DNA from: Deltaproteobacteria bacterium
GTDB taxonomy: Bacteria > Myxococcota_A > Polyangia > HGW-17
NCBI GenBank assembly: GCA_016937155.1
Contig: JAFGWM010000032.1
Coordinates: forward strand, 1-64,000
DNA length: 64,000 nucleotides
Direction: 5' to 3'
A program made the position numbers and the translations under genes. Under the pieces are notes generated by a model. The model did no database searches. It was not told where the DNA came from and saw nothing but the letters and a program-made list of their open reading frames with translations. The number at the start of each line of letters is the position of its first letter. The first letter of the stretch is position 1. Shown in pieces: positions 3,208 to 50,832 of the stretch.

Positions 3208-4560
3208 GTGACTATAAAAGAAAATTATCTGAGAGCAGCAAGTGAGTCTCTGGCAAGACTCGATAATTCATATTCTTATTTTCCGGAAGAGGATACTCCG
3301 GTATTTGTAAAGGGCAAGGGAGTCAGATTATATGATCCCGATGGAAATGAATATCTTGATATGGTTTCCGGCTATGGAGCGCTTAATCAGGGACATACAC
3401 ATCCTAAAATTGTTGCATCCTTGCTGGCTCAGGCAAATCGTCTGACTCACACAAGCGCCACCCTCAGTGATGTTAAAGTGGAACTGGCTGAGAAACTGGC
3501 TACTCTCAGTCCTATTCCCAACACTAAAGTACATTTTGATCTTGGTGGAGCCAGGGTTGTTGAAGGGGCAAAGATTCTTACTAGAGCTTATACCGGAAAA
3601 TCCAAGGTTATTTCATTTCAGAACTCATTCCATGGAAGATCAACAGGTTCTTTATCACTTTACAATGCCGATACATTTCAGCATCTTTTCAATTCTCCCA
3701 GAGATTATTACAGTGCTCCATATCCTTACTGTTACAGGTGTCCTGTTGGTCTGAAAAAGGAAAGCTGTAATTTTGAATGTCTCAAGGGTGTTTATGAGAT
3801 ACTCGATAACAATAATGATATTGGTGGAATAATTGTCGAGCCAGCTCTTGGAGCCAGAGGTTATATAGTTCCCCCAAAGGGATTTTTCAAAAAACTCCGT
3901 AGAATTTGCGATAAATACGGACTTCTGTTTATTGATGATGAAATACAGATGGGTTTGGGCAGACTTGGAACAATGTTCGCCTGTGAATATTATGAGACGG
4001 TTCCTGATATTATTTTACTTTCCAAATCAATTGCAGGAGGTATGTGGCCGCTGAGTGTCATACTTGGAAGGAAAGAAATAATGGAGCGTATACGCCCGGG
4101 GACTCTGGGAAGTACGTTTGCTGGAGCTCCACTGGGTTGTGCCGCCGGTCTTGCCGCAATTGAAGTTATTGAGGAAGAAAAACTCTGTGAGAGAAGCAGA
4201 GACCTCGGTGTATATTTTATGGAAAAACTCAATGAGAGATTTTCAGAGTATTCAATTGTCGGAAATATTGATGGTATAGGACTGGGGATAGGTATTGAAC
4301 TTGTACTCCCGAATGGGGAACCCGCCACAGAAGAAGCACAGATGCTTCAGTTAACAGCTTTAAGGAATGGTCTGCTGCTTCAAAGAGGTGGTCCTGCAAA
4401 GAATATCATCAATTTGATTCCTGCACTTGTTATAACCAAGTCTGAGATAGATGAGGCTATAGACAGAATTGAAGAAAATCTTATAAAAGTACTTCATGAA
4501 CCTGAAATAATTGAACATATTTCTTCAGTTAAATCCTCCAGTGACAGCGAAGTTGTTTAG
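3208..4560 (+). CDS. Class III PLP-dependent aminotransferase
   Basis: A fold-type I aminotransferase of the class III family (4-aminobutyrate, ornithine and acetylornithine aminotransferases), transferring an amino group to a 2-oxo acid in the cytosol. I place the start at the GTG at 3208, 7 bases after TGAGG; an in-frame TTG at 3196 would overlap that site. The 450-residue product shows the N-terminal DPDGNEYLDMVSGYG, the cofactor region FHGRSTGSLS, the IDDEIQMGLGRLGTMFA motif and the Schiff-base lysine in LLSKSIAGGM (about Lys273). A PYPYCYRCP...CNFEC insert adds four cysteines near residues 175-191. The phosphate-binding stretch reads LGGARVVEGA where NSGSEANE-like sequence is usual. The substrate cannot be told. 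It stands alone, 124 bases before a MATE exporter. Confidence 0.85.
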   Translation: MTIKENYLRAASESLARLDNSYSYFPEEDTPVFVKGKGVRLYDPDGNEYLDMVSGYGALNQGHTHPKIVASLLAQANRLTHTSATLSDVKVELAEKLATLSPIPNTKVHFDLGGARVVEGAKILTRAYTGKSKVISFQNSFHGRSTGSLSLYNADTFQHLFNSPRDYYSAPYPYCYRCPVGLKKESCNFECLKGVYEILDNNNDIGGIIVEPALGARGYIVPPKGFFKKLRRICDKYGLLFIDDEIQMGLGRLGTMFACEYYETVPDIILLSKSIAGGMWPLSVILGRKEIMERIRPGTLGSTFAGAPLGCAAGLAAIEVIEEEKLCERSRDLGVYFMEKLNERFSEYSIVGNIDGIGLGIGIELVLPNGEPATEEAQMLQLTALRNGLLLQRGGPAKNIINLIPALVITKSEIDEAIDRIEENLIKVLHEPEIIEHISSVKSSSDSEVV

Positions 4561-40970: not shown

Positions 40971-41828
40971 TTAAATAATTTTTTTAAATACTGTTTTGTT
41001 GATTTCCAGAACATCTTCAAGAAGTTTTATACCGGATATATGAGAACCATAATTTTCAATTGAGAGTAAATCTTCTCCAATATTACTTTCCTTACTGGAA
41101 AAGTTTTGAAGTGAAATAAAATTTGAGACAGTTTTTCCAAGATTTTCAGAAAAAAGTTTTTCTTCTGAAATCGAAAGTGGACTGGAATTTCTCACAAAAA
41201 TAAATCTGGCGGTTTTTATGAAGTTATCAACAATCAATGCTCTCTTTAAAGCCTTTTGAGTAATTTTTTTTGTTTCAGTCCCTGATGAAAGTTGATCATG
41301 TGAAATATTCTGAAGGTTTGTCCACATTCTGGACAATTCATTTTGCAGATCTGAAAATTCTTTTGTCCACTTAACAGTGTGGATTGCATTTTTTATCAGT
41401 TTTATCGCCTGTCCAGTGGGTGGAGCATCAATAACGACGCTTCCTGTGTGTTTTTTTATTTCATCTGCAGCAGCTTCCCAGATGGCCTGATCCTCGATTC
41501 CGGGAGAGTTAACCAGTAAATCGATGAATTTTCCCACTGAGAAAGCATCAAGAAAACGATATTTTTTTTTAAGTAATCTTTTTGATTTTTGAGAAGTTTT
41601 TTTAATCCAAAGATCAAAATCAGGTTCAAAAATGCGGATTGATCCACCGGGTTCAACGGATTTTTCGGGGATTTTGTCAGTCTCCCATATGGATGAAAGG
41701 GAATGTGCACTATCCATGCTTATGAGAAGAACGGGATTCTTTTTTGAAAGTTCAAGTGCCAGTAAACTGGAAATAGTACTTTTTCCTGATCCCCCTTTTC
41801 CCGTAATGAAAAAAAAATTGTTTTTCAT
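40971..41828 (-). CDS. ArsA/Get3-family ATPase
   Basis: A 285-residue cytosolic P-loop ATPase. The deviant Walker A ITGKGGSGKSTIS (residues 8-20) begins the protein, followed by LLISMDSAHSLSSIW (the DxAHSL switch), SVVIDAPPTGQAIKL (DAPPTG) and FVRNSSPLSI. These features place it in the ArsA/Get3 group. It is a single domain without the arsenite-binding cysteine triad, so arsenite transport is unlikely and a Get3-like or regulatory role may apply. It is the last gene of a five-gene operon behind two kinases and a glycosyltransferase, 5 bases after the latter. Related proteins sit beside secreted-protein or motility genes in deltaproteobacteria. Confidence 0.82.
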   Translation of the reverse strand: MKNNFFFITGKGGSGKSTISSLLALELSKKNPVLLISMDSAHSLSSIWETDKIPEKSVEPGGSIRIFEPDFDLWIKKTSQKSKRLLKKKYRFLDAFSVGKFIDLLVNSPGIEDQAIWEAAADEIKKHTGSVVIDAPPTGQAIKLIKNAIHTVKWTKEFSDLQNELSRMWTNLQNISHDQLSSGTETKKITQKALKRALIVDNFIKTARFIFVRNSSPLSISEEKLFSENLGKTVSNFISLQNFSSKESNIGEDLLSIENYGSHISGIKLLEDVLEINKTVFKKII

Positions 41829-41833
41829 AATAT

Positions 41834-42724
41834 TCAGGAACTGGTTCGTCTGACAATAAGTTCTGCTAAAAGACCCATTGCAAGAGTCTGAACACTTGTC
41901 ATTATAAGTACAGCAGAAGTTGAATCCATTATTCTCCCCGTGACAAAATAACTGCCAAAAAGTACAATGATTCCGGCAAGAAGAAGAAAAAGTGAGAAGG
42001 GAAAAAATACCCTCAACGGTCTGAAATACATAATTGTCCTGACGATCAGTGACATAAAATTTAAAGTGTCATAAATTGGTCTTATTTTGGATTTGCCCTT
42101 CCTGTGATGATAGTCAATGGGTATATATTTTACTCTGTAGCCATCAACGATCATTGCAATGGATATTGTTGACGTAAAAGAAAATCCATCAGGAAGAAGG
42201 CGTATATACTTAAGAACCACCTCTCTTCTCATTAAACGTAATCCACTGTTCAGATCCGGAATTTTTCTGCCACTGACATATGATGCCAGAGAGGTGATAA
42301 AAGCCTTTGCTGGACGTCTTACAAGGGGAATGTGAACGCTGTTTCCTGTTCTTGAACCAATTATCATATCGGATTCATCCATGTATCTGGATAAATTAAG
42401 TAATTCAGTTTCAGGATAAGTCCCATCGGCATCAATTATTGCAAACCATTTGGTTTTAATGGAATGAACCCCGGTTTTAAGGGCTGCTCCATATCCTCTG
42501 TTTTCAGCATGACTTATAGTTTTTACACCGGATTTTTTTACAATTTCACTGGTTCCATCAGTGGAACCATCATCAACCACTAAAATTTCCCATGGAAAAT
42601 CAGCATCTTTCATAGCATCCTGAAGTCTGCTTAATACTTTTTCAATACCTGTTGCTTCATTGTATGCAGGCATTATTATGGTTAAATCGTTTATTTCCTG
42701 TTCAGGTTCTTTAGACAAATTCAT
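41834..42724 (-). CDS. Family 2 glycosyltransferase (DPM1-like) with membrane anchor
   Basis: A 296-residue GT2 enzyme. The nucleotide-sugar domain has IIMPAYNEATGIEKVL, VVDDGSTDGT (DDGS motif) and AIIDADGTYPE (DxD). SDMIIGSRTGNSV and ISIAMIVDGYRVKYIPIDYHHRKGKSKI fit the dolichyl/undecaprenyl-phosphate mannosyl- or glucosyltransferase group. Two hydrophobic segments at the C-terminus (VFFPFSLFLLLAGIIVLF and SVQTLAMGLLAELIV) anchor it to the inner membrane. It overlaps the upstream kinase gene by 4 bases. Its product, a lipid-linked sugar, probably feeds a glycan or glycoprotein pathway; the sugar is not determinable. Confidence 0.85.
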   Translation of the reverse strand: MNLSKEPEQEINDLTIIMPAYNEATGIEKVLSRLQDAMKDADFPWEILVVDDGSTDGTSEIVKKSGVKTISHAENRGYGAALKTGVHSIKTKWFAIIDADGTYPETELLNLSRYMDESDMIIGSRTGNSVHIPLVRRPAKAFITSLASYVSGRKIPDLNSGLRLMRREVVLKYIRLLPDGFSFTSTISIAMIVDGYRVKYIPIDYHHRKGKSKIRPIYDTLNFMSLIVRTIMYFRPLRVFFPFSLFLLLAGIIVLFGSYFVTGRIMDSTSAVLIMTSVQTLAMGLLAELIVRRTSS

Positions 42725-43998
42725 TTACCCTTCACCAGTAAGAGAATTATAATTATGATTATTATGAAAACAGTGGCTCCGATCATCATATAAATATACT
42801 TCATAAGATCCGCTGTCTTTGGTTCTTCAACAGGGGGCTCCTTAATTTGATTGATGAGATTATCTGTTTTTATGTCAACTTCCTCATCCATGTCAGAATC
42901 ATCAATATCCAGTTCCAGTTCCATAACTTCTTGAAGATTAAAGTCTTTTTTTACAATGGTATCAAAGGATTCGTGTCTTCCGCTATCCTGAGGATTCATA
43001 TTAAAATCAAGTGTTGATGCAACACGGGAAATATCCATTTCCGCCTGAAATTCATCCGGAAAAATTCTTTTCATAAGATCAGATAATTCCTGAGGCTTAA
43101 ATTTATAGGGTTCTAAAAGTCTGTCTATATCTTCCGAAAATTCTCTGGCTGTCTGGTATCTGTCTTCACGTTCTCTGGCAAGAGCTTTCATAACAACAGC
43201 ATCAAGTTCAGGGCTTATTCTTCTGTTGATTGATGATGGAGGATTAATCTCGGATTTCCGAACTTTCTCCATCAGAACAGTTTCACTTTCGCCCTTAAAC
43301 AGTCTCTCCATTGTCAGCATTTCGTACAGAATAATACCGAGGCTGAAAATATCAGTTCTTCCATCAAGTGGAAGTCCACGAATCTGCTCCGGTGACATAT
43401 AACTGAATTTTCCCTTTAATGTGCCTATTTCAGAAGTAAAGCGTGCTTTTGTTTTAGCAATTCCAAAGTCAATAAGTTTAACATCTCCGTCATAGGCAAC
43501 TCTTATATTTGATGGGCTTACATCACGATTAACTATGTTGAGAAGTTTTCCCTCTTCATCCTTGAGATTGTGGGCATAATCAAGTCCCTTTGCTGCCTCA
43601 GAGGTTATAAAAAGAGTCACTGGAATTGGAATACGCTGACCATTTAGCTGAACTTTCCTGAGAATGTGATTAAGATCTTTTCCACAGATGTAATCCATAG
43701 TGAAATAACAGGTGTTTCTGTACCTTCCACCTTCATATGTTTTGACAATATTGGGATGGTCGAGCATACTTGCCAGTTTCCCCTCAGCCATGAACATATC
43801 AACATACTTTTGTTCTCTTGCCAGTCTATTGCGCATGCATTTAAGAGCAATCATCTTATCCTCTTTCATACGCTTGGCTCTGTACACTTCAGCCATTCCA
43901 CCTTTGGCTACAAGACCCAGCATCAGATATTTTCCGAACATTGCAGGATTTTCAGGTGATCCAGGATCCAGTGCTAAGGAATCTGCTTTTTTAGTCAT
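42721..43998 (-). CDS. Membrane Ser/Thr protein kinase
   Basis: A 425-residue Hanks-type kinase with a C-terminal membrane helix (YIYMMIGATVFIIIIIIILLL). The kinase domain has the Gly loop AKGGMAEVYR, the ATP lysine Lys53 in ALKCM, and IDFGIAKT with Asp177. SYMSPEQIRG and TDIFSLGIILYEML are conserved. The catalytic loop reads NRDVSPSN (Asn157-Arg-Asp159) where HRD is usual; the catalytic Asp remains, so it may still be active. The region between kinase and anchor (300-400) is acidic, and the external part is only a few residues. It overlaps the glycosyltransferase gene by 4 bases and follows the larger kinase gene by 98 bases. Confidence 0.88.
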   Translation of the reverse strand: MTKKADSLALDPGSPENPAMFGKYLMLGLVAKGGMAEVYRAKRMKEDKMIALKCMRNRLAREQKYVDMFMAEGKLASMLDHPNIVKTYEGGRYRNTCYFTMDYICGKDLNHILRKVQLNGQRIPIPVTLFITSEAAKGLDYAHNLKDEEGKLLNIVNRDVSPSNIRVAYDGDVKLIDFGIAKTKARFTSEIGTLKGKFSYMSPEQIRGLPLDGRTDIFSLGIILYEMLTMERLFKGESETVLMEKVRKSEINPPSSINRRISPELDAVVMKALAREREDRYQTAREFSEDIDRLLEPYKFKPQELSDLMKRIFPDEFQAEMDISRVASTLDFNMNPQDSGRHESFDTIVKKDFNLQEVMELELDIDDSDMDEEVDIKTDNLINQIKEPPVEEPKTADLMKYIYMMIGATVFIIIIIIILLLVKGK

Positions 43999-44096: not shown

Positions 44097-46529
44097 TTAT
44101 CTGTACCGCTTATGAAACCAGTTCAACCAGTTGAATCTCATTTTTTCAAATGAAAGGGAATCCATTCCTGAAAGATTCAAAGCTTTTTCCATGAATTTTT
44201 TTTCAGAAAGCGGCATCTCGATAGCCCTGACATTACCCGTAGATGAATGAAGTTTTCCTGATTTATTCAGTCTGACTAAAGAGGTGTGGGTATCAATAAC
44301 TGCACTTCTCAGGAGGATACTCAGAAGTTTTTTCCTTTTTGTCGCAATGTCCGGTCGAAAATTTATTTTATTTTTAATTTCAAACGGGTTTGTATAAAAG
44401 ACCGCGTTTTTATTTGAATAAAGCTTACTGTTGACAGGTAATCTTGGAATTGATTTCTTTACGGGTCCCTGCTTTGAACCTGGAGGAAGAATAAATATAT
44501 TCTGGCCTTCTCCGAGAATGAATTCAACAAACTTTTCTGCCAGCTCTTTTCTTGGTGAAAATCTGAGAACACTAACCGGATCAGGTGTGAAAACAGCTGT
44601 TTCCGGGGGAAGAATAAAAATCATTTTCTGAGTCAGGGAAGCATCAGATTCAGTTTTCCAAAGGAAGTATAGAAAATCAATGAGTATCCCACAGACTGCA
44701 TTTTTATCTTCGACTAAATGATGCATAATTCCACTGGAACTTCTGAGGAAGTGTCCGGAAATATTCGATGAAATTCCTGTTATTACTTCCCATCCCTTTT
44801 TCCATCCTAAAGACTGGAGGATCATTTCATAGATCATTAGAGTGGATGAAGATAGAGTAGGATCAGCACTTACCAGTGAATTAAAAAATGTTCTTTTTGA
44901 AAGATCAGTCCATGATGCCGGAAGTCTGATTTTTTTCGCCGCCAGTTTTTCCTTGTTACAGACAATGCCGAATCCACTTAGTGCAGTGGCAAACCATTTT
45001 TTCTGAGGATCTATCAGATTGATTCCCTGAAGAGTAGATGGAATATTCTCAGTAATTTGAGGGTCCGGATTAATTTTGACTGAACATGATTTTTTTTCTC
45101 CGTTTATGGAAACACAGTTTGAAGATGCAAGTTTGCGATGGAGCTGCTGGCCACCTCCAAGCATTACATCAACCATTTTGTTCGGATTTTTCTTTGTGGA
45201 AGACAACCTCATTCTTAGAAGAAAAAGTTCATCCTTGCTGGTAACCCATTTGATTGAAACATTTCTGCCAAATTTACGGTTCATGTATCTTTTAAAACCC
45301 TCTTCATATTCGGAATTAAGATCTGGCGGGTGGGCACTTAGCACATGAAGTGTTTCAATATTAAGATTTTCAACTTTATCTGTTTCGATCTTTTCAGATT
45401 TTTTTTGATTGGCATAAAAGTATATACCGATTCCAAGTAATGCAGTAATTCCCATAAAGAGAATAGGACCAAACCAGGTTTTGCGGTTTTTTGGTTGAGG
45501 CTCCGAATTAATATCAAATAGAACCTGCCTGATTTCCATATTCAGGGATGAAGCACTTTCAAATCTTTCAAATGGTTCTTTGGAAAGACAACGAAAAATA
45601 ATATCAGCCAGTTTTTTATCAATGCCATGCTCATCAGAAATAGCAGGAGGTGGATCCTTTAAATGACCACTTATAACATCCATTGGAGTGGTGCCTAAAA
45701 ATGGTTCATGACCTTTAAAACATCTGTATAAAATAACACCAAAACTATAAATATCACTGGATGTTGTAATATCCCTTCCTCTGCACTGTTCAGGTGACAT
45801 ATATAGCGGTGATCCCTTGATGACTCCCTGAACAGTCTGATTGTTGGTGTATCCCTCTTCCTTGAATTTTGCTATTCCAAAATCAAGTAGTTTTACATGA
45901 AAATCTCCATGGGAATTTCGCCCAAGAAAAATATTTTCAGGTTTAAGATCTCTGTGAATAATATTTTTTTTATGAGCAGCATCCAGTGCAAGTAAAATCT
46001 GAGGAAGAATCTCGTATGCTTCCGTATAACTCAACGTTGAATGTTTTTTGAGAAAATCTCCAAGATTTTCTCCTTCAAGAAGTTCCATTACAAAGAAAAA
46101 ATTGCCTGATGGCAGTTGTCCAAAAGAGAAAATATCAATGATATGTTCAGAGCGGATTTCATTTGCCGCCTTTGCTTCATTTTTAAAAGCCTGTACAATA
46201 TCAGTATCTTTACTGTATTTGGTTTTTAGTACTTTAACAGCAACTTTTTTCCCTATAATGGGATGTTCTCCGCTGTAGACCCAACCCATTCCTCCTTTTC
46301 CAATGATTCCGGTAATAATATACTCTCCTGCCATTTGTCCTATAAGATTTTCAGGGATGTTACTCAGGGAATCAGGTTTGATTATATCTTCCTGATTATC
46401 CGGAGAAATATTTTTACCGGACACCGGCATTTTTAGAGTTGATGAAGTGGCAATATCCTGTCCGCAAAAACCACAGAATTTAGCATTGTTTTCATAGGAA
46501 CGGCCACATTTGAGGCATTTTTTCGTCAT
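44097..46529 (-). CDS. Ser/Thr kinase fused to a periplasmic solute-binding domain
   Basis: An 810-residue receptor kinase. It starts with a zinc ribbon (CLKCG...CGFCG, Cys5, 8, 19, 22). The kinase domain (about 70-340) has GKGGMGWVY, Lys99, HRDLKPEN (192-199), DFGIA (216-220) and MSPEQ, and looks active. A membrane helix at 353-372 is followed by about 430 residues outside. Residues about 390-720 resemble an iron/polyamine-type binding protein: VDVMLGGGQQLHRKL, WFATALSGFGIVCNKEKL, LPASWTDLSKRTFFNSLVSADPTLSSST, GWEVITGISSNI. A helical tail ends the protein. A ligand outside should steer the kinase inside. It follows the Na+ symporter gene by 12 bases. Confidence 0.88.
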   Translation of the reverse strand: MTKKCLKCGRSYENNAKFCGFCGQDIATSSTLKMPVSGKNISPDNQEDIIKPDSLSNIPENLIGQMAGEYIITGIIGKGGMGWVYSGEHPIIGKKVAVKVLKTKYSKDTDIVQAFKNEAKAANEIRSEHIIDIFSFGQLPSGNFFFVMELLEGENLGDFLKKHSTLSYTEAYEILPQILLALDAAHKKNIIHRDLKPENIFLGRNSHGDFHVKLLDFGIAKFKEEGYTNNQTVQGVIKGSPLYMSPEQCRGRDITTSSDIYSFGVILYRCFKGHEPFLGTTPMDVISGHLKDPPPAISDEHGIDKKLADIIFRCLSKEPFERFESASSLNMEIRQVLFDINSEPQPKNRKTWFGPILFMGITALLGIGIYFYANQKKSEKIETDKVENLNIETLHVLSAHPPDLNSEYEEGFKRYMNRKFGRNVSIKWVTSKDELFLLRMRLSSTKKNPNKMVDVMLGGGQQLHRKLASSNCVSINGEKKSCSVKINPDPQITENIPSTLQGINLIDPQKKWFATALSGFGIVCNKEKLAAKKIRLPASWTDLSKRTFFNSLVSADPTLSSSTLMIYEMILQSLGWKKGWEVITGISSNISGHFLRSSSGIMHHLVEDKNAVCGILIDFLYFLWKTESDASLTQKMIFILPPETAVFTPDPVSVLRFSPRKELAEKFVEFILGEGQNIFILPPGSKQGPVKKSIPRLPVNSKLYSNKNAVFYTNPFEIKNKINFRPDIATKRKKLLSILLRSAVIDTHTSLVRLNKSGKLHSSTGNVRAIEMPLSEKKFMEKALNLSGMDSLSFEKMRFNWLNWFHKRYR

Positions 46530-46541
46530 TTAAACGCACAA

Positions 46542-47906
46542 TCAGGAAAGTGTTTTTCCTGTGAATAAAATAAAACCAAGAACCAGTGCAATAGCAGCCG
46601 GTGCAGCAAACCATATTAACGGTCTGAGAATATATCTCAAATATTTTAGTTTTTCACTATTTCGAAAAAGTTCCTTCTCAGTATTCTTTATTCCCCATTT
46701 AAATACAACAAAGAGTATCAGCAGCAATCCACCCAGAGCAAGAGATACGTTTCCGAAAAGAAAATCCATTATACCTAAAAAGCCTGTTTTTTGTCCACCA
46801 ATTGAGATCATGGAAGTAAGTGATTTATTTGCTCCAAGACTGAGAGCACTGGGAATACCTACAATAAAGGTAATGAATGTCACTATTGTTGCAGCTTTTT
46901 TTCTGGGAATCTTATGTTCATCCATAAGGTAGGAAGCCGCCACCTCAAGCAGTGAAATTGTTGAGGTTAGAGCAGCTACGGTGAGGAGGAGAAAAAACAA
47001 CGCCGCAAGTATTCTTCCTCCAGGCAGTTTTGTAAAAAGATCAGTTATAACAACAAAAACCAGACCGGCACCACTCTTTTGTGGTGCTCCACCCAGTACT
47101 GGAAATATGATCAGTCCGGACATCAATGCAATTACAGTGTCAAAAATTACAACGAGAAATCCTGCTTTAACCAGATTTTCTTTCTTCTTCAGGTAACTTC
47201 CATATGTCATCATTGCTCCCATTCCAAGACTCAGGGAGAAAAAAGCCTGTCCGAGAGCAAAAATAAAAGTTGTCTTTGTGAAATCTGATGATTTAGGAAC
47301 CAGATAATATTTGAGCCCTGAGGTGGCCCCCTTAAGTGTCATTGAATAAATAATAAGTCCTGTGAGAAGAAGAAGAAGAATCGGCATGAGAATGGAACTT
47401 ACTTTCTCTATTCCACCCTTGATTCCGGAAATTACTATTCCACCTGTAAGAGCCAGAAAAATATACAGCAACGCAATCTGATGAGGGCCTGATGCAACAA
47501 ATTCACCGAAAAGTTCATTGGTTTTTCCTGATGGAAAACCATGAAAGACAGCCTTAAAAAAATACCACACTGTCCATCCGGCTACCACACCATAGAAGGA
47601 AAGAATACCTATGCCGGTGATAACTGCGAGATATCCCATGAATTTCCAGAATGATCCTGGAGCAATACTCTCCACGGCTCCAACCGGACCCCTTTTTGAA
47701 AATCTCCCCATTGACAGTTCAAGATACATTACCGGTAAACCAATCAGGAGTACAATTGAAACATATAAAAGAACAAAGGTTCCACCTCCATTTTGCCCGG
47801 TAATATATGGAAATCTCCATATATTACCCAGTCCTATAGCACTACCCGCCGCTGCCAGAATAAAACCAAGCGAGGAATTCCACTGTTCTCTTTTAGGTGC
47901 GCTCAT
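46542..47906 (-). CDS. Neurotransmitter:sodium symporter (SNF) family transporter
   Basis: A 454-residue Na+-coupled amino acid-type transporter of the LeuT/MhsT fold. The N-terminus EQWNSSLGFILAAAGSAIGLGNIWRFPYITGQNGGGTFVLLY includes the unwound TM1 GSAIGLGNIWRFPY that carries the substrate and Na+ sites. I count about eleven or twelve membrane helices. TM6-like ALGQAFFSLSLGMGAMMTYGSY is present too. Substrates in the family are amino acids; the exact one is unknown. GGAGGAGA lies just before the ATG. It begins an operon with the SBP-fused kinase, a second kinase, a glycosyltransferase and the ArsA-like ATPase. The kinase may sense the same ligand. Confidence 0.9.
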   Translation of the reverse strand: MSAPKREQWNSSLGFILAAAGSAIGLGNIWRFPYITGQNGGGTFVLLYVSIVLLIGLPVMYLELSMGRFSKRGPVGAVESIAPGSFWKFMGYLAVITGIGILSFYGVVAGWTVWYFFKAVFHGFPSGKTNELFGEFVASGPHQIALLYIFLALTGGIVISGIKGGIEKVSSILMPILLLLLTGLIIYSMTLKGATSGLKYYLVPKSSDFTKTTFIFALGQAFFSLSLGMGAMMTYGSYLKKKENLVKAGFLVVIFDTVIALMSGLIIFPVLGGAPQKSGAGLVFVVITDLFTKLPGGRILAALFFLLLTVAALTSTISLLEVAASYLMDEHKIPRKKAATIVTFITFIVGIPSALSLGANKSLTSMISIGGQKTGFLGIMDFLFGNVSLALGGLLLILFVVFKWGIKNTEKELFRNSEKLKYLRYILRPLIWFAAPAAIALVLGFILFTGKTLS

Positions 47907-48409: not shown

Positions 48410-48793
48410 ATGAACAGACTGTTAGCCATTGTACTAGTTTCTGTAGTTTTTACATGGGGATGTAGTGATCCGTGTGAGAAAGCAGTCAAAAAAGCTCAGA
48501 GTTGTCTGGAAAAAGAAGGTAAAAAAGAAAACAAAGCTGATCCACCGGTTTTTTTGCAGATTTGTAAACAGAACAGAGATAAATTTAAAAAATGTCTTTC
48601 TATCAATGACTGTGTAAAATACAGGGAGTGTATCAGCAAAGCTGGAACCGATGAGAAAGCTGAAAAGGAATTGAATAAATCTGATTCTTCCGAAAAGGAA
48701 GAAAAAAAGACGGATAAAGTGGAAGCGAAATCTCCTGAAAAATCTGAAAAAAATACCGAATCTGAACCGAAAAAACCACCTGAGAAGAAGTAA
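48410..48793 (+). CDS. Small cysteine-containing lipoprotein
   Basis: A 127-residue lipoprotein (lipobox TWGC, Cys18). Residues 20-70 are helical with six cysteines spaced as in coiled-coil helix-helix (CX9C-like) folds (PCEKAVKKAQSCLEK; ICKQNRDKFKKCLSINDCVKYRECIS). The rest is a Lys/Glu/Ser/Pro tail of low complexity, perhaps spanning the periplasm or contacting the wall. Strong expression is suggested by its promoter and ribosome site. It converges with the Fe-S gene 10 bases away. Function unknown. Confidence 0.72.
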   Translation: MNRLLAIVLVSVVFTWGCSDPCEKAVKKAQSCLEKEGKKENKADPPVFLQICKQNRDKFKKCLSINDCVKYRECISKAGTDEKAEKELNKSDSSEKEEKKTDKVEAKSPEKSEKNTESEPKKPPEKK

Positions 48794-48803
48794 CTGTTCT
48801 TTT

Positions 48804-49859
48804 TTATTCCGTTGATGTTCTGATAAACTTCAAAAGATCCGTAAAATTATTCCGGGGGAGAATTTTATTTATCAGATATGTAATTAGTGGCCCTGTGGTT
48901 ATAATCTGATGATATTTTTCAATGGAAATTTGTTCAAGTACGGTGTTAACTGTTTTATGAATAATATTTTCACTAAGACCTGTTATTATACCGGATCCTG
49001 ACAGGCAATGATGTTTTTCATCTGGAAAATCAACTTTTTCAGCAAGATATTCGAGAATTCGTAATGGAGTCTCTTTAAGTCCAAGATGATTTATCATGGA
49101 GCATTCAGGTATATAGTAAACAGATTCGTTTTTACATCTGACATCATTCCATTTCCAGTGATATCTGTAGAAGAACTCCGAATAATGAATCAGTTCCGGC
49201 TGATTACCTGAATTTTGACCATAAATATTTTTAAACATATATAGATCTTTTTCATCAAGAAAAACAATAAGTTTATATTTTTTCATCCATTCTGTATTTT
49301 TCTTTTTAATGGAATTATATAATTCATATCTTCCGTTAATCCAGTTTTCGTATCCTGAAGAAAAAGGAGTGGAATCAACTAAAGAAATCTTTTCAATTTT
49401 AAAAGTTCTGCAAATGTGCATAAAATCCTCAAGGGCCACCGGATTGTAATTGAGAGTCATGCTGCCAGGAAAAATACCTGTGGTTTGGAAGGTTTTTATT
49501 CCCTGGGGAATATCCTGAAGAAAATTTTCAGGAATCATGTTCTTTTCATCGGAAATCATAAAACTATTTTTTTTTGTATTTATAGATTCCCTTAAGGATA
49601 TCATATTTTTTCCTGTTTTAATTGAATAACAGCAAAATTCTGTACAGTTTCCACAGTTTATACAGAAAGAATAGATTTCTTCTGCGGTTTCAGTTGAAAG
49701 TTGTGAATTGCAAAACAGAAATTGAATTTTATTAAGAGAAGATGGAGAGTGAGAGTGCTTTTTTGTGGCATTAAAAACCGGACAGACAAATCTACAAAGT
49801 CCAGGACAGAGTGAACAAAGTTTCATTGAATTTAAATTGTCTTCGTCTATTTTACTCAT
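48804..49859 (-). CDS. Two-[4Fe-4S] ferredoxin-type oxidoreductase subunit (GlcF-like)
   Basis: A 351-residue protein with two cluster motifs near the N-terminus: Cys15, 18, 22 and 26 (CSLCPGLCRFVCP) and Cys66, 69, 72 and 76 (CINCGNCTEFC). These resemble the ferredoxin part of GlcF, LldE and GlpC proteins. The C-terminal half is weakly like their CCG domain; only HHCLSGSGI near residue 283 recalls the CCG motif, so the usual CCG cluster site is mostly lost. Its start overlaps the end of the FAD protein gene by 8 bases. It likely passes electrons from the FAD subunits to the membrane pool. Exact role unknown. Confidence 0.78.
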   Translation of the reverse strand: MSKIDEDNLNSMKLCSLCPGLCRFVCPVFNATKKHSHSPSSLNKIQFLFCNSQLSTETAEEIYSFCINCGNCTEFCCYSIKTGKNMISLRESINTKKNSFMISDEKNMIPENFLQDIPQGIKTFQTTGIFPGSMTLNYNPVALEDFMHICRTFKIEKISLVDSTPFSSGYENWINGRYELYNSIKKKNTEWMKKYKLIVFLDEKDLYMFKNIYGQNSGNQPELIHYSEFFYRYHWKWNDVRCKNESVYYIPECSMINHLGLKETPLRILEYLAEKVDFPDEKHHCLSGSGIITGLSENIIHKTVNTVLEQISIEKYHQIITTGPLITYLINKILPRNNFTDLLKFIRTSTE

Positions 49860-50832
49860 CTAAAACCTCGATGGATCTCATAATCTGTGTATTATCATGG
49901 GTGTATTCCTTGAATTCAATTGCCTCATGAGTTCCATGCACACAGTAAATACCTGGTTTAACAATATCATCCATTGTTGCTGATGAAGGTATCAGGTTTC
50001 TTCCAGATAGAAAAACATCTCTTGAATTCCATAGATTTTCTTTTGGATTCTCGAATAGGACATTTCTGAATTTCTGCGCATGGTTTAGTTTTGTTCGTGT
50101 AACTGCAGTGTTTCCTGTAAAAAAACAGTGAATTTCAATATTACCATTATTGTTCATCACAAGACTGGTAAGAGGTTCCATCTCTGTAGTTGACGCTGTG
50201 TGTATGAGAAATTTTTTAACATCATCCTTTTTTTTTGGATGAACAATCAGTGGTTGAACTGGAGTTTCCAGATGATTTACCCTCAGATAAATATCAGTGA
50301 TAATTCCAAACTTTCCTTTTTTACCAAGGAACAGATCAAAAAAATCAATTCCATAATTTCTTTCAGGAACTACCCGAGAAGTAATGACATCGCCTGAAAG
50401 CATTATTCCGTTAAATCCGGCAATAACTCCTCTTGGTCCGAAAAACTGGAATCCGGGGAGTGAATATCCATTACTGATAACTTCCCATAATGTCATCTCT
50501 GATATACCAGGAAAAAAACAATTGAGTGTAAGCCCTTCTTTTCTTAATGTATTTTCAAGAGATCCCAGTTTAACTCCTGTTTGAACCTGAATTATAAGAC
50601 TTTTTTTGTCTCTATAAAGGATAGAATCAAGTGCAGTAAGATCAATCAGTAGACCTTCTGAATTCAATGGTTTCTTATGTGTTGCGAGTAGGGGAATATT
50701 TCGTCTGCTGCATTCTCTCATCAATCGAGAAAGTTCAATTGTTGAATCAGGTTTTGCAGTAATTGTTTTGTTGTTAGAAAAAATATCGATATTTTGGAAT
50801 AGATTTTTAATGATACTATAAGTTAATTCCAT
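49852..50832 (-). CDS. FAD-binding oxidoreductase, short (GlcE-like)
   Basis: A 326-residue protein of the vanillyl-alcohol oxidase/PCMH-type FAD family. Conserved stretches are IELSRLMRECSRRNIPLLATHKKP, VQTGVKLGSLENTLRKEGLTLN, FFGPRGVIAGFNGIML and DLFLGKKGKFGIITDIYLRV, matching the FAD domain of GlcE. The large substrate-binding cap of GlcD proteins is reduced. It ends one base into the start of the GlcD-like gene's stop, so the three genes form a tight operon (GlcD-like, GlcE-like, GlcF-like). As in glycolate oxidase, the short FAD protein may be a companion subunit. Confidence 0.78.
   Translation of the reverse strand: MELTYSIIKNLFQNIDIFSNNKTITAKPDSTIELSRLMRECSRRNIPLLATHKKPLNSEGLLIDLTALDSILYRDKKSLIIQVQTGVKLGSLENTLRKEGLTLNCFFPGISEMTLWEVISNGYSLPGFQFFGPRGVIAGFNGIMLSGDVITSRVVPERNYGIDFFDLFLGKKGKFGIITDIYLRVNHLETPVQPLIVHPKKKDDVKKFLIHTASTTEMEPLTSLVMNNNGNIEIHCFFTGNTAVTRTKLNHAQKFRNVLFENPKENLWNSRDVFLSGRNLIPSSATMDDIVKPGIYCVHGTHEAIEFKEYTHDNTQIMRSIEVLDE

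Follow-up and report, generated by a model that had tools for sequence, protein, structure and literature searches.

How bacterial Ser/Thr kinases are activated is an open question, and few of them have a known small-molecule ligand. The window, that is, the whole 64,000-nucleotide stretch of DNA that was analysed, contains a gene that bears on this question. One open frame with an ATG start fills positions 44097..46529 on the minus strand and encodes an 810-aa protein, in which a zinc ribbon is followed by a Ser/Thr kinase, a single membrane helix, and a type 2 solute-binding domain; five further genomes carried the same architecture. With a small-molecule-binding fold and a kinase in one polypeptide, and a transport paralogue for comparison elsewhere in that genome, the ligand, the pocket change, and the kinase response become directly testable. 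Is the fusion real, where did its sensor come from, and what might it sense?

The zinc ribbon named in the original prediction (residues 4-25; 46455..46520, minus strand) showed the CxxC...CxxC pattern, although its Pfam Zn_Ribbon_1 score of 19.9 bits fell below the cut-off of 25; the cysteines were invariant in the alignment of relatives. The kinase domain (residues 72-329; 45543..46316, minus strand) matched Pfam Pkinase with an E value of 3.5e-47. It had been described as apparently active, and the VAVK (K99), HRDLKPEN (D194), and DFG (D216) motifs were all intact, with K99, D194, and D216 invariant in the relatives. Judged by these catalytic residues (Lys, HRD-Asp, and DFG-Asp), the domain belongs to the Hanks-type Ser/Thr kinases, and the closest PDB structures found by phmmer were StkP, PknA, and PknB. 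The hydropathy profile contained a single hydrophobic segment from about residue 351, in agreement with the one membrane helix claimed earlier; the helix was predicted at about residues 351-371 (45417..45479, minus strand) and appeared at 354-380 in a low-confidence full-length model. The ~440 residues C-terminal to it are predicted to lie outside. The stretches VDVMLGGGQ, LSGFGIVCNKEKL, and DPTLSSST, previously cited as signs of a binding protein, were all found in the protein.

Among the 59 relatives searched and the source genome, six genomes, all belonging to one uncultured Myxococcota family, carried the kinase fusion; no match came from two other members of the family (70-73% complete). 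The fusion frames encode 816 aa in G001, 836 aa in G002, and 822 aa in G006, whereas in G004 the kinase and binding parts share one frame except for one in-frame stop, and the G003 copy is interrupted by two contig ends. Because it is present in five other genomes, the fusion is not an artefact, and the observed gene is confirmed as genuine. The relatives are draft metagenome assemblies and one copy contains a stop, which could point to an assembly artefact or a pseudogene, but four independent assemblies carry the fusion intact and a fifth is split merely by contig ends, leaving this explanation a negligible probability. The stop lies in the kinase part of the G004 fusion (locus L024, about 4019-4021), and the near-identical G006 copy is without it; it represents either recent decay or an assembly error.

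The predicted extracellular type 2 solute-binding domain (residues 392-810; 44100..45356, minus strand) matched Pfam SBP_bac_6 at residues 490-674 (E 5.8e-16; 59.1 bits versus a curated cut-off of 24.6). An AlphaFold2 model of residues 390-810, based on an alignment of 43 sequences from the window and related loci, had a mean pLDDT of 91.7 and a pTM of 0.90, and its predicted two-lobed architecture was that of solved type 2 binding proteins. In the Foldseek search against the PDB, almost all matches were type 2 binding proteins (FbpA, VcA0625, P5PA, FutA, and AfuA), and the best TM-score listed was that of open apo AfuA (0.81 over the target, 3.7 Å). These results support the claim that a complete binding-protein domain is present. 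The type 2 fold anticipated for residues 390-810 was thus recovered, but the closed cleft was not, since the open form of AfuA matched best; the open or closed state of a predicted structure is no evidence in either direction. The C-terminal extension of the domain was also present in stand-alone relatives.

By sequence profile, the nearest solved proteins were P5PA, AfuA, and VcA0625, all phosphate-ester binders (PMC4546632, PMC8427247). Neither iron nor polyamine was favoured, contrary to the ferric/polyamine specificity that had been assigned to the domain. In the FbpA group the iron ligands at the cleft are His/Glu/Tyr-Tyr; a paired aromatic site reads IDYY or IDFY in stand-alone kin versus IDFL or IDYF in the fusions. 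The original prediction is partly supported: it is right in large part, but its ligand class is unsupported.

A binding protein had been called an uncommon sensor for such a kinase, and the kinome of the source genome agrees with this. The genome contains ~58 kinase-like places, and a Pfam scan of 30 of its other long kinases detected a binding-protein domain in none of them; their extra domains were of the TPR, PEGA, LRR, HEAT, and sulfatase-modifying-factor types. The usual partner domains were TPR, PASTA, WD40, GAF, PD40, and APH in a survey of prokaryotic kinases (PMC2877116) and TPR, WD40, the sulfatase-modifying domain, and DUF1080 in a survey of Planctomycetota kinases (PMC11032199). 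One membrane Ser/Thr kinase of the source genome (L108, 1521-3557) bears an external formylglycine-generating-enzyme-like (FGE-sulfatase) domain, comparable to those in the Planctomycetota surveys. A plasmid search with the kinase domain named no kinase-binding-domain fusion among the best 60 of 901 records, and a literature search on kinase/binding-domain fusions found none described in such terms.

The source genome has one other SBP_bac_6 protein, a stand-alone protein of 456 aa that is 35% identical to the sensor. Its operon runs binding protein, ATPase, double permease and thus forms a complete ABC importer; the same operon is carried by G001. ABC ATPase and permease genes were present beside this paralogue, and none were found beside the fusions. 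In the tree, the six fusions formed one clade (100/100) that joined the stand-alone proteins of the same family (98/96), and the stem branch of the fused clade was long (1.3 changes per column). A ten-residue insertion bracketed by C472 and C482 (45084..45116, minus strand) was, among the sequences aligned, common only to the fusions and the same-family stand-alone paralogues; this insertion is a mark of common descent, with a possible disulfide between its cysteines. The tree and the common insertion together show that the sensor was captured once from the importer lineage. The simplest history consistent with these sequences is that the importer's binding protein was duplicated once, fused once to a zinc-ribbon Hanks-type kinase, and then inherited vertically.

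The wider distribution was in line with a single family. Binding-domain identity among the six fusions was 36-55%, save one near-identical pair, and 36-42% between genera. A GTDB pattern scan, which can miss distant kin, returned 73 loci, and kinase fusions occurred only in four outside records of the fusion family; other kinds of binding domain were sought within the source genome. The remaining loci of the scan were stand-alone binding proteins, mostly of Poribacteria, Verrucomicrobiota, Planctomycetota, Omnitrophota, and Myxococcota, and when 379 genomes of the phylum were searched with a profile, no further fusion emerged. Two candidates were rejected: a stop-free stretch of 795 aa in G067 proved to be a long high-GC frame before an ordinary binding protein, permease, and ATPase operon, and the 776-aa frame of L030 gives a stand-alone protein of 516 aa from its true start. 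Many Poribacteria loci (for example, L053 and L048) contain a stand-alone relative of the binding domain with no adjacent ATPase or permease gene; any transport partner would be encoded at another site. In L040 (Planctomycetota, Brocadiaceae), a Ser/Thr kinase gene at about 540-1350, with no obvious membrane helix, lies on the same strand directly upstream of the gene for a stand-alone binding protein of this SBP family (1421-2857), which is accompanied by its permease and ATPase genes; this may be a kinase link of independent origin.

The neighbouring genes were considered with regard to what the sensor might serve. The Na+ symporter gene reported 12 bases upstream of the fusion was indeed there: it encodes an SNF-family (Na+:neurotransmitter-type) symporter of 454 aa (46542..47906, minus strand; Pfam SNF, E 1.4e-63) and adjoins the fusion in 6/6 genomes. 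Next downstream, again in 6/6, is a second Ser/Thr kinase of 425 aa (42721..43998, minus strand; Pfam Pkinase, E 1.6e-39), with a membrane helix at its extreme C terminus by hydropathy. A family 2 glycosyltransferase gene (41834..42724, minus strand; Pfam Glycos_transf_2, E 5.2e-29) directly follows and is likewise kept in all six. The order symporter, fusion, second kinase, glycosyltransferase was therefore fixed in every fusion genome (the G003 order spans two contig ends). Only 2/6 fusion genomes yielded the importer's binding protein; it was not found in G002, G004, and G006 (87-92% complete), all of which keep the fusion, and the fusion never occurred without the symporter. By this contrast, 2/6 for the importer's binding protein versus 6/6 for the symporter, the sensor follows the symporter and not the importer. 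A role for the fusion in sensing on behalf of its paralogous importer was set aside on the basis of the three genomes that keep the fusion and in which that binding protein was not found.

It had been proposed that ligand uptake and sensing could be linked. Conserved synteny in all six genomes strengthens this proposal, but co-location is no proof of regulation, and a link to the symporter would have as its main support the retention of the symporter beside the fusion, also in genomes that yielded no binding protein of the importer. A different reading of the same operon is that the protein is a transport subunit and not a receptor, the domain handing its solute to the symporter or to an ABC permease and the kinase modulating transport locally. 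The fusion does share an operon with the SNF symporter, and its paralogue is a transport subunit; however, none of the four fusion loci from the GTDB scan contains the ABC permease, three fusion genomes yielded no copy of the importer's binding protein, and no SNF-family symporter is known to use a binding protein. A transport subunit is thus very improbable.

Other genes near the fusion were also noted. A small cysteine-rich lipoprotein gene lies beside the SNF symporter in the window (48410-48793, plus strand), in L022 (8218-8526), and in L023 (6259-6588), the L022 and L023 relatives being 53% and 47% identical; the product is a possible periplasmic partner. A single-domain ArsA/Get3-like ATPase gene (40971-41828, minus strand) is located two genes after the second kinase (42721-43998) and in the same order in G001 (L022). 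The sole membrane helix of the second kinase, at its C-terminal extreme, resembles a tail anchor, and this kinase may be a client of the Get3-like factor. Genes with Fe-S (Fer4_8) and FAD-binding (FAD_binding_4) domains that resemble glycolate-oxidase-type subunits adjoin the symporter region (48804-50832, minus strand).

The binding pocket was compared with those of AfuA and P5PA, in which the phosphate of the ligand is held by the starts of three helices, through Ser/Thr37, Ser-Gly-Thr 148-150 (147-149 in P5PA), and Gly185/Ser183 (PMC4546632, PMC8427247). A HMMER alignment mapped these residues onto the GGT, SGS, and xSS loops of the SBP family studied here, and GGT and SGS were nearly invariant among the stand-alone relatives. 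The first loop of the fusion (KDEL, residues 432-435; 45225..45236, minus strand), equivalent to AfuA Ser37 and P5PA Thr37, was [KR]D[DE]L in 6/6 fusions versus GG[T/S/A/G] in stand-alone proteins, and D433 (domain column 44) was Asp in 6/6 fusions versus Gly in 35/37 stand-alone rows. The second loop (SSS, residues 560-562; 44844..44852, minus strand), equivalent to AfuA Ser148-Gly149-Thr150, had Ser at S561 (domain column 172) in 6/6 fusions versus the middle Gly in 37/37 stand-alone relatives. The third loop (SS, residues 597-598; 44736..44741, minus strand), near AfuA Gly185 and P5PA Ser183, follows a one-residue insertion seen in fusions only. Thus, none of the six fusions matches the AfuA/P5PA phosphate-site pattern, since the first loop is replaced and the Gly of the second is Ser in each. 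D433, L435, S561, S597, and S598 were invariant across the fusions, and the cleft-side residues D618 and D650 remained invariant. As the fusions share just 36-42% identity between genera, these pocket positions are held by selection.

Since the three loops are altered alike in 6/6 fusions, the ligand probably differs from that of the importer and is probably not a phosphate ester. The domain might nevertheless have kept the phosphate-ester or phosphonate binding of AfuA, P5PA, and VcA0625, with the kinase reporting the importer's substrate; these proteins are its nearest solved relatives by profile, and S560, S562, and S598 are still Ser at two phosphate loops. This is improbable, because an Asp at the start of an anion-site helix, in the loop that bears Ser37/Thr37, is evidence against phosphate esters, and G002, G004, and G006 retain the fusion although they yielded no binding protein of the importer. 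The replacement of all three anion-site loops could also mean that small-solute binding was lost and that the captured domain became a protein-docking module for another periplasmic protein. A loaded binding protein, the outer loops of the symporter, and the conserved small lipoprotein next door, whose gene adjoins the symporter in three genomes, would be candidate partners. Such a docking role is unlikely, although less so than a retained phosphate ester: the new loop residues are fixed despite the low identity and the cleft aspartates D618 and D650 are kept, a pattern more in keeping with a new ligand than with decay. We therefore favour a new ligand over a docking role for the cleft by about 3:1, and our first guess for that ligand is an amino acid or amine that the SNF symporter would transport.

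Taken together, we consider the fusion to be a receptor Ser/Thr kinase that crosses the membrane once and responds to a small solute, with a probability of about 65%. The binding domain would lie outside the membrane and bind the solute between its lobes, which would close on it. The membrane helix could then change how the kinase domains pair or are oriented, and these domains would trans-autophosphorylate and relay the signal to targets in the cytoplasm; the leading candidates would be the second kinase encoded next door and, in activity or amount, the SNF symporter. Several points weigh against this receptor model. The conserved loop changes could equally reflect lost ligand binding, the position beside the symporter does not establish regulation, the stem branch of the fused clade is long, and signal transfer through the helix is an assumption, the full-length model (4 sequences) having a pLDDT of only 56. 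A more specific version is tentative and rather doubtful, namely that the importer-derived domain was re-specialised for the substrate of the adjacent Na+ symporter and sets symporter activity through Ser/Thr phosphorylation and the second kinase. If true, it would provide a direct, ligand-defined receptor for Ser/Thr kinases. In either form, the fusion probably enables the cell to sense one particular dissolved molecule, through ligand binding and signalling by a sensor that derives from an old capture out of a transporter of the same lineage.

Binding proteins have been described as sensors for Ser/Thr kinases in the actinobacterial GlnH-GlnX-PknG system, which its authors termed a new role (PMC6069109). 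As a solute-binding protein there informs a Ser/Thr kinase of an extracellular nutrient, so may the sensor of the fusion by analogy. However, that system consists of three proteins (the lipoprotein GlnH, the membrane protein GlnX, and the soluble, TPR-bearing PknG) and uses an aspartate/glutamate-binding domain of another family, whereas the fusion is a single polypeptide with an SBP_bac_6 sensor and falls outside it. AfuA, P5PA, and VcA0625 share the fold and a detectable sequence kinship with this sensor, but they are free periplasmic subunits of phosphate-ester ABC importers with no kinase, and their three phosphate-binding loops are all changed in the fusion. The PASTA-type receptor kinases (PknB, StkP, and PrkC) have the same order of kinase, membrane helix, and external sensor and the nearest kinase domains in the PDB; unlike them, the fusion has no PASTA repeats by Pfam, and it scored 261.8 bits versus a cut-off of 450 for the PASTA receptor kinase family NF033483, the match being limited to the kinase part. 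In BvgS-type histidine kinases, a binding-protein-like external domain is fused directly to the kinase, which belongs to another superfamily with another signalling chemistry. The annotation name "bifunctional serine/threonine-protein kinase/ABC transporter substrate-binding protein" may apply to actinobacterial proteins with type 1 (Peripla_BP_6) domains; if real, these would likewise combine a Ser/Thr kinase with a binding domain and represent an independent fusion. The fusion is not categorically new, as some histidine kinases are known to carry binding-protein sensors and PknG is known to be served by one in trans; it is a well-marked case of a transporter part turned receptor, with the altered pocket residues pinpointed.
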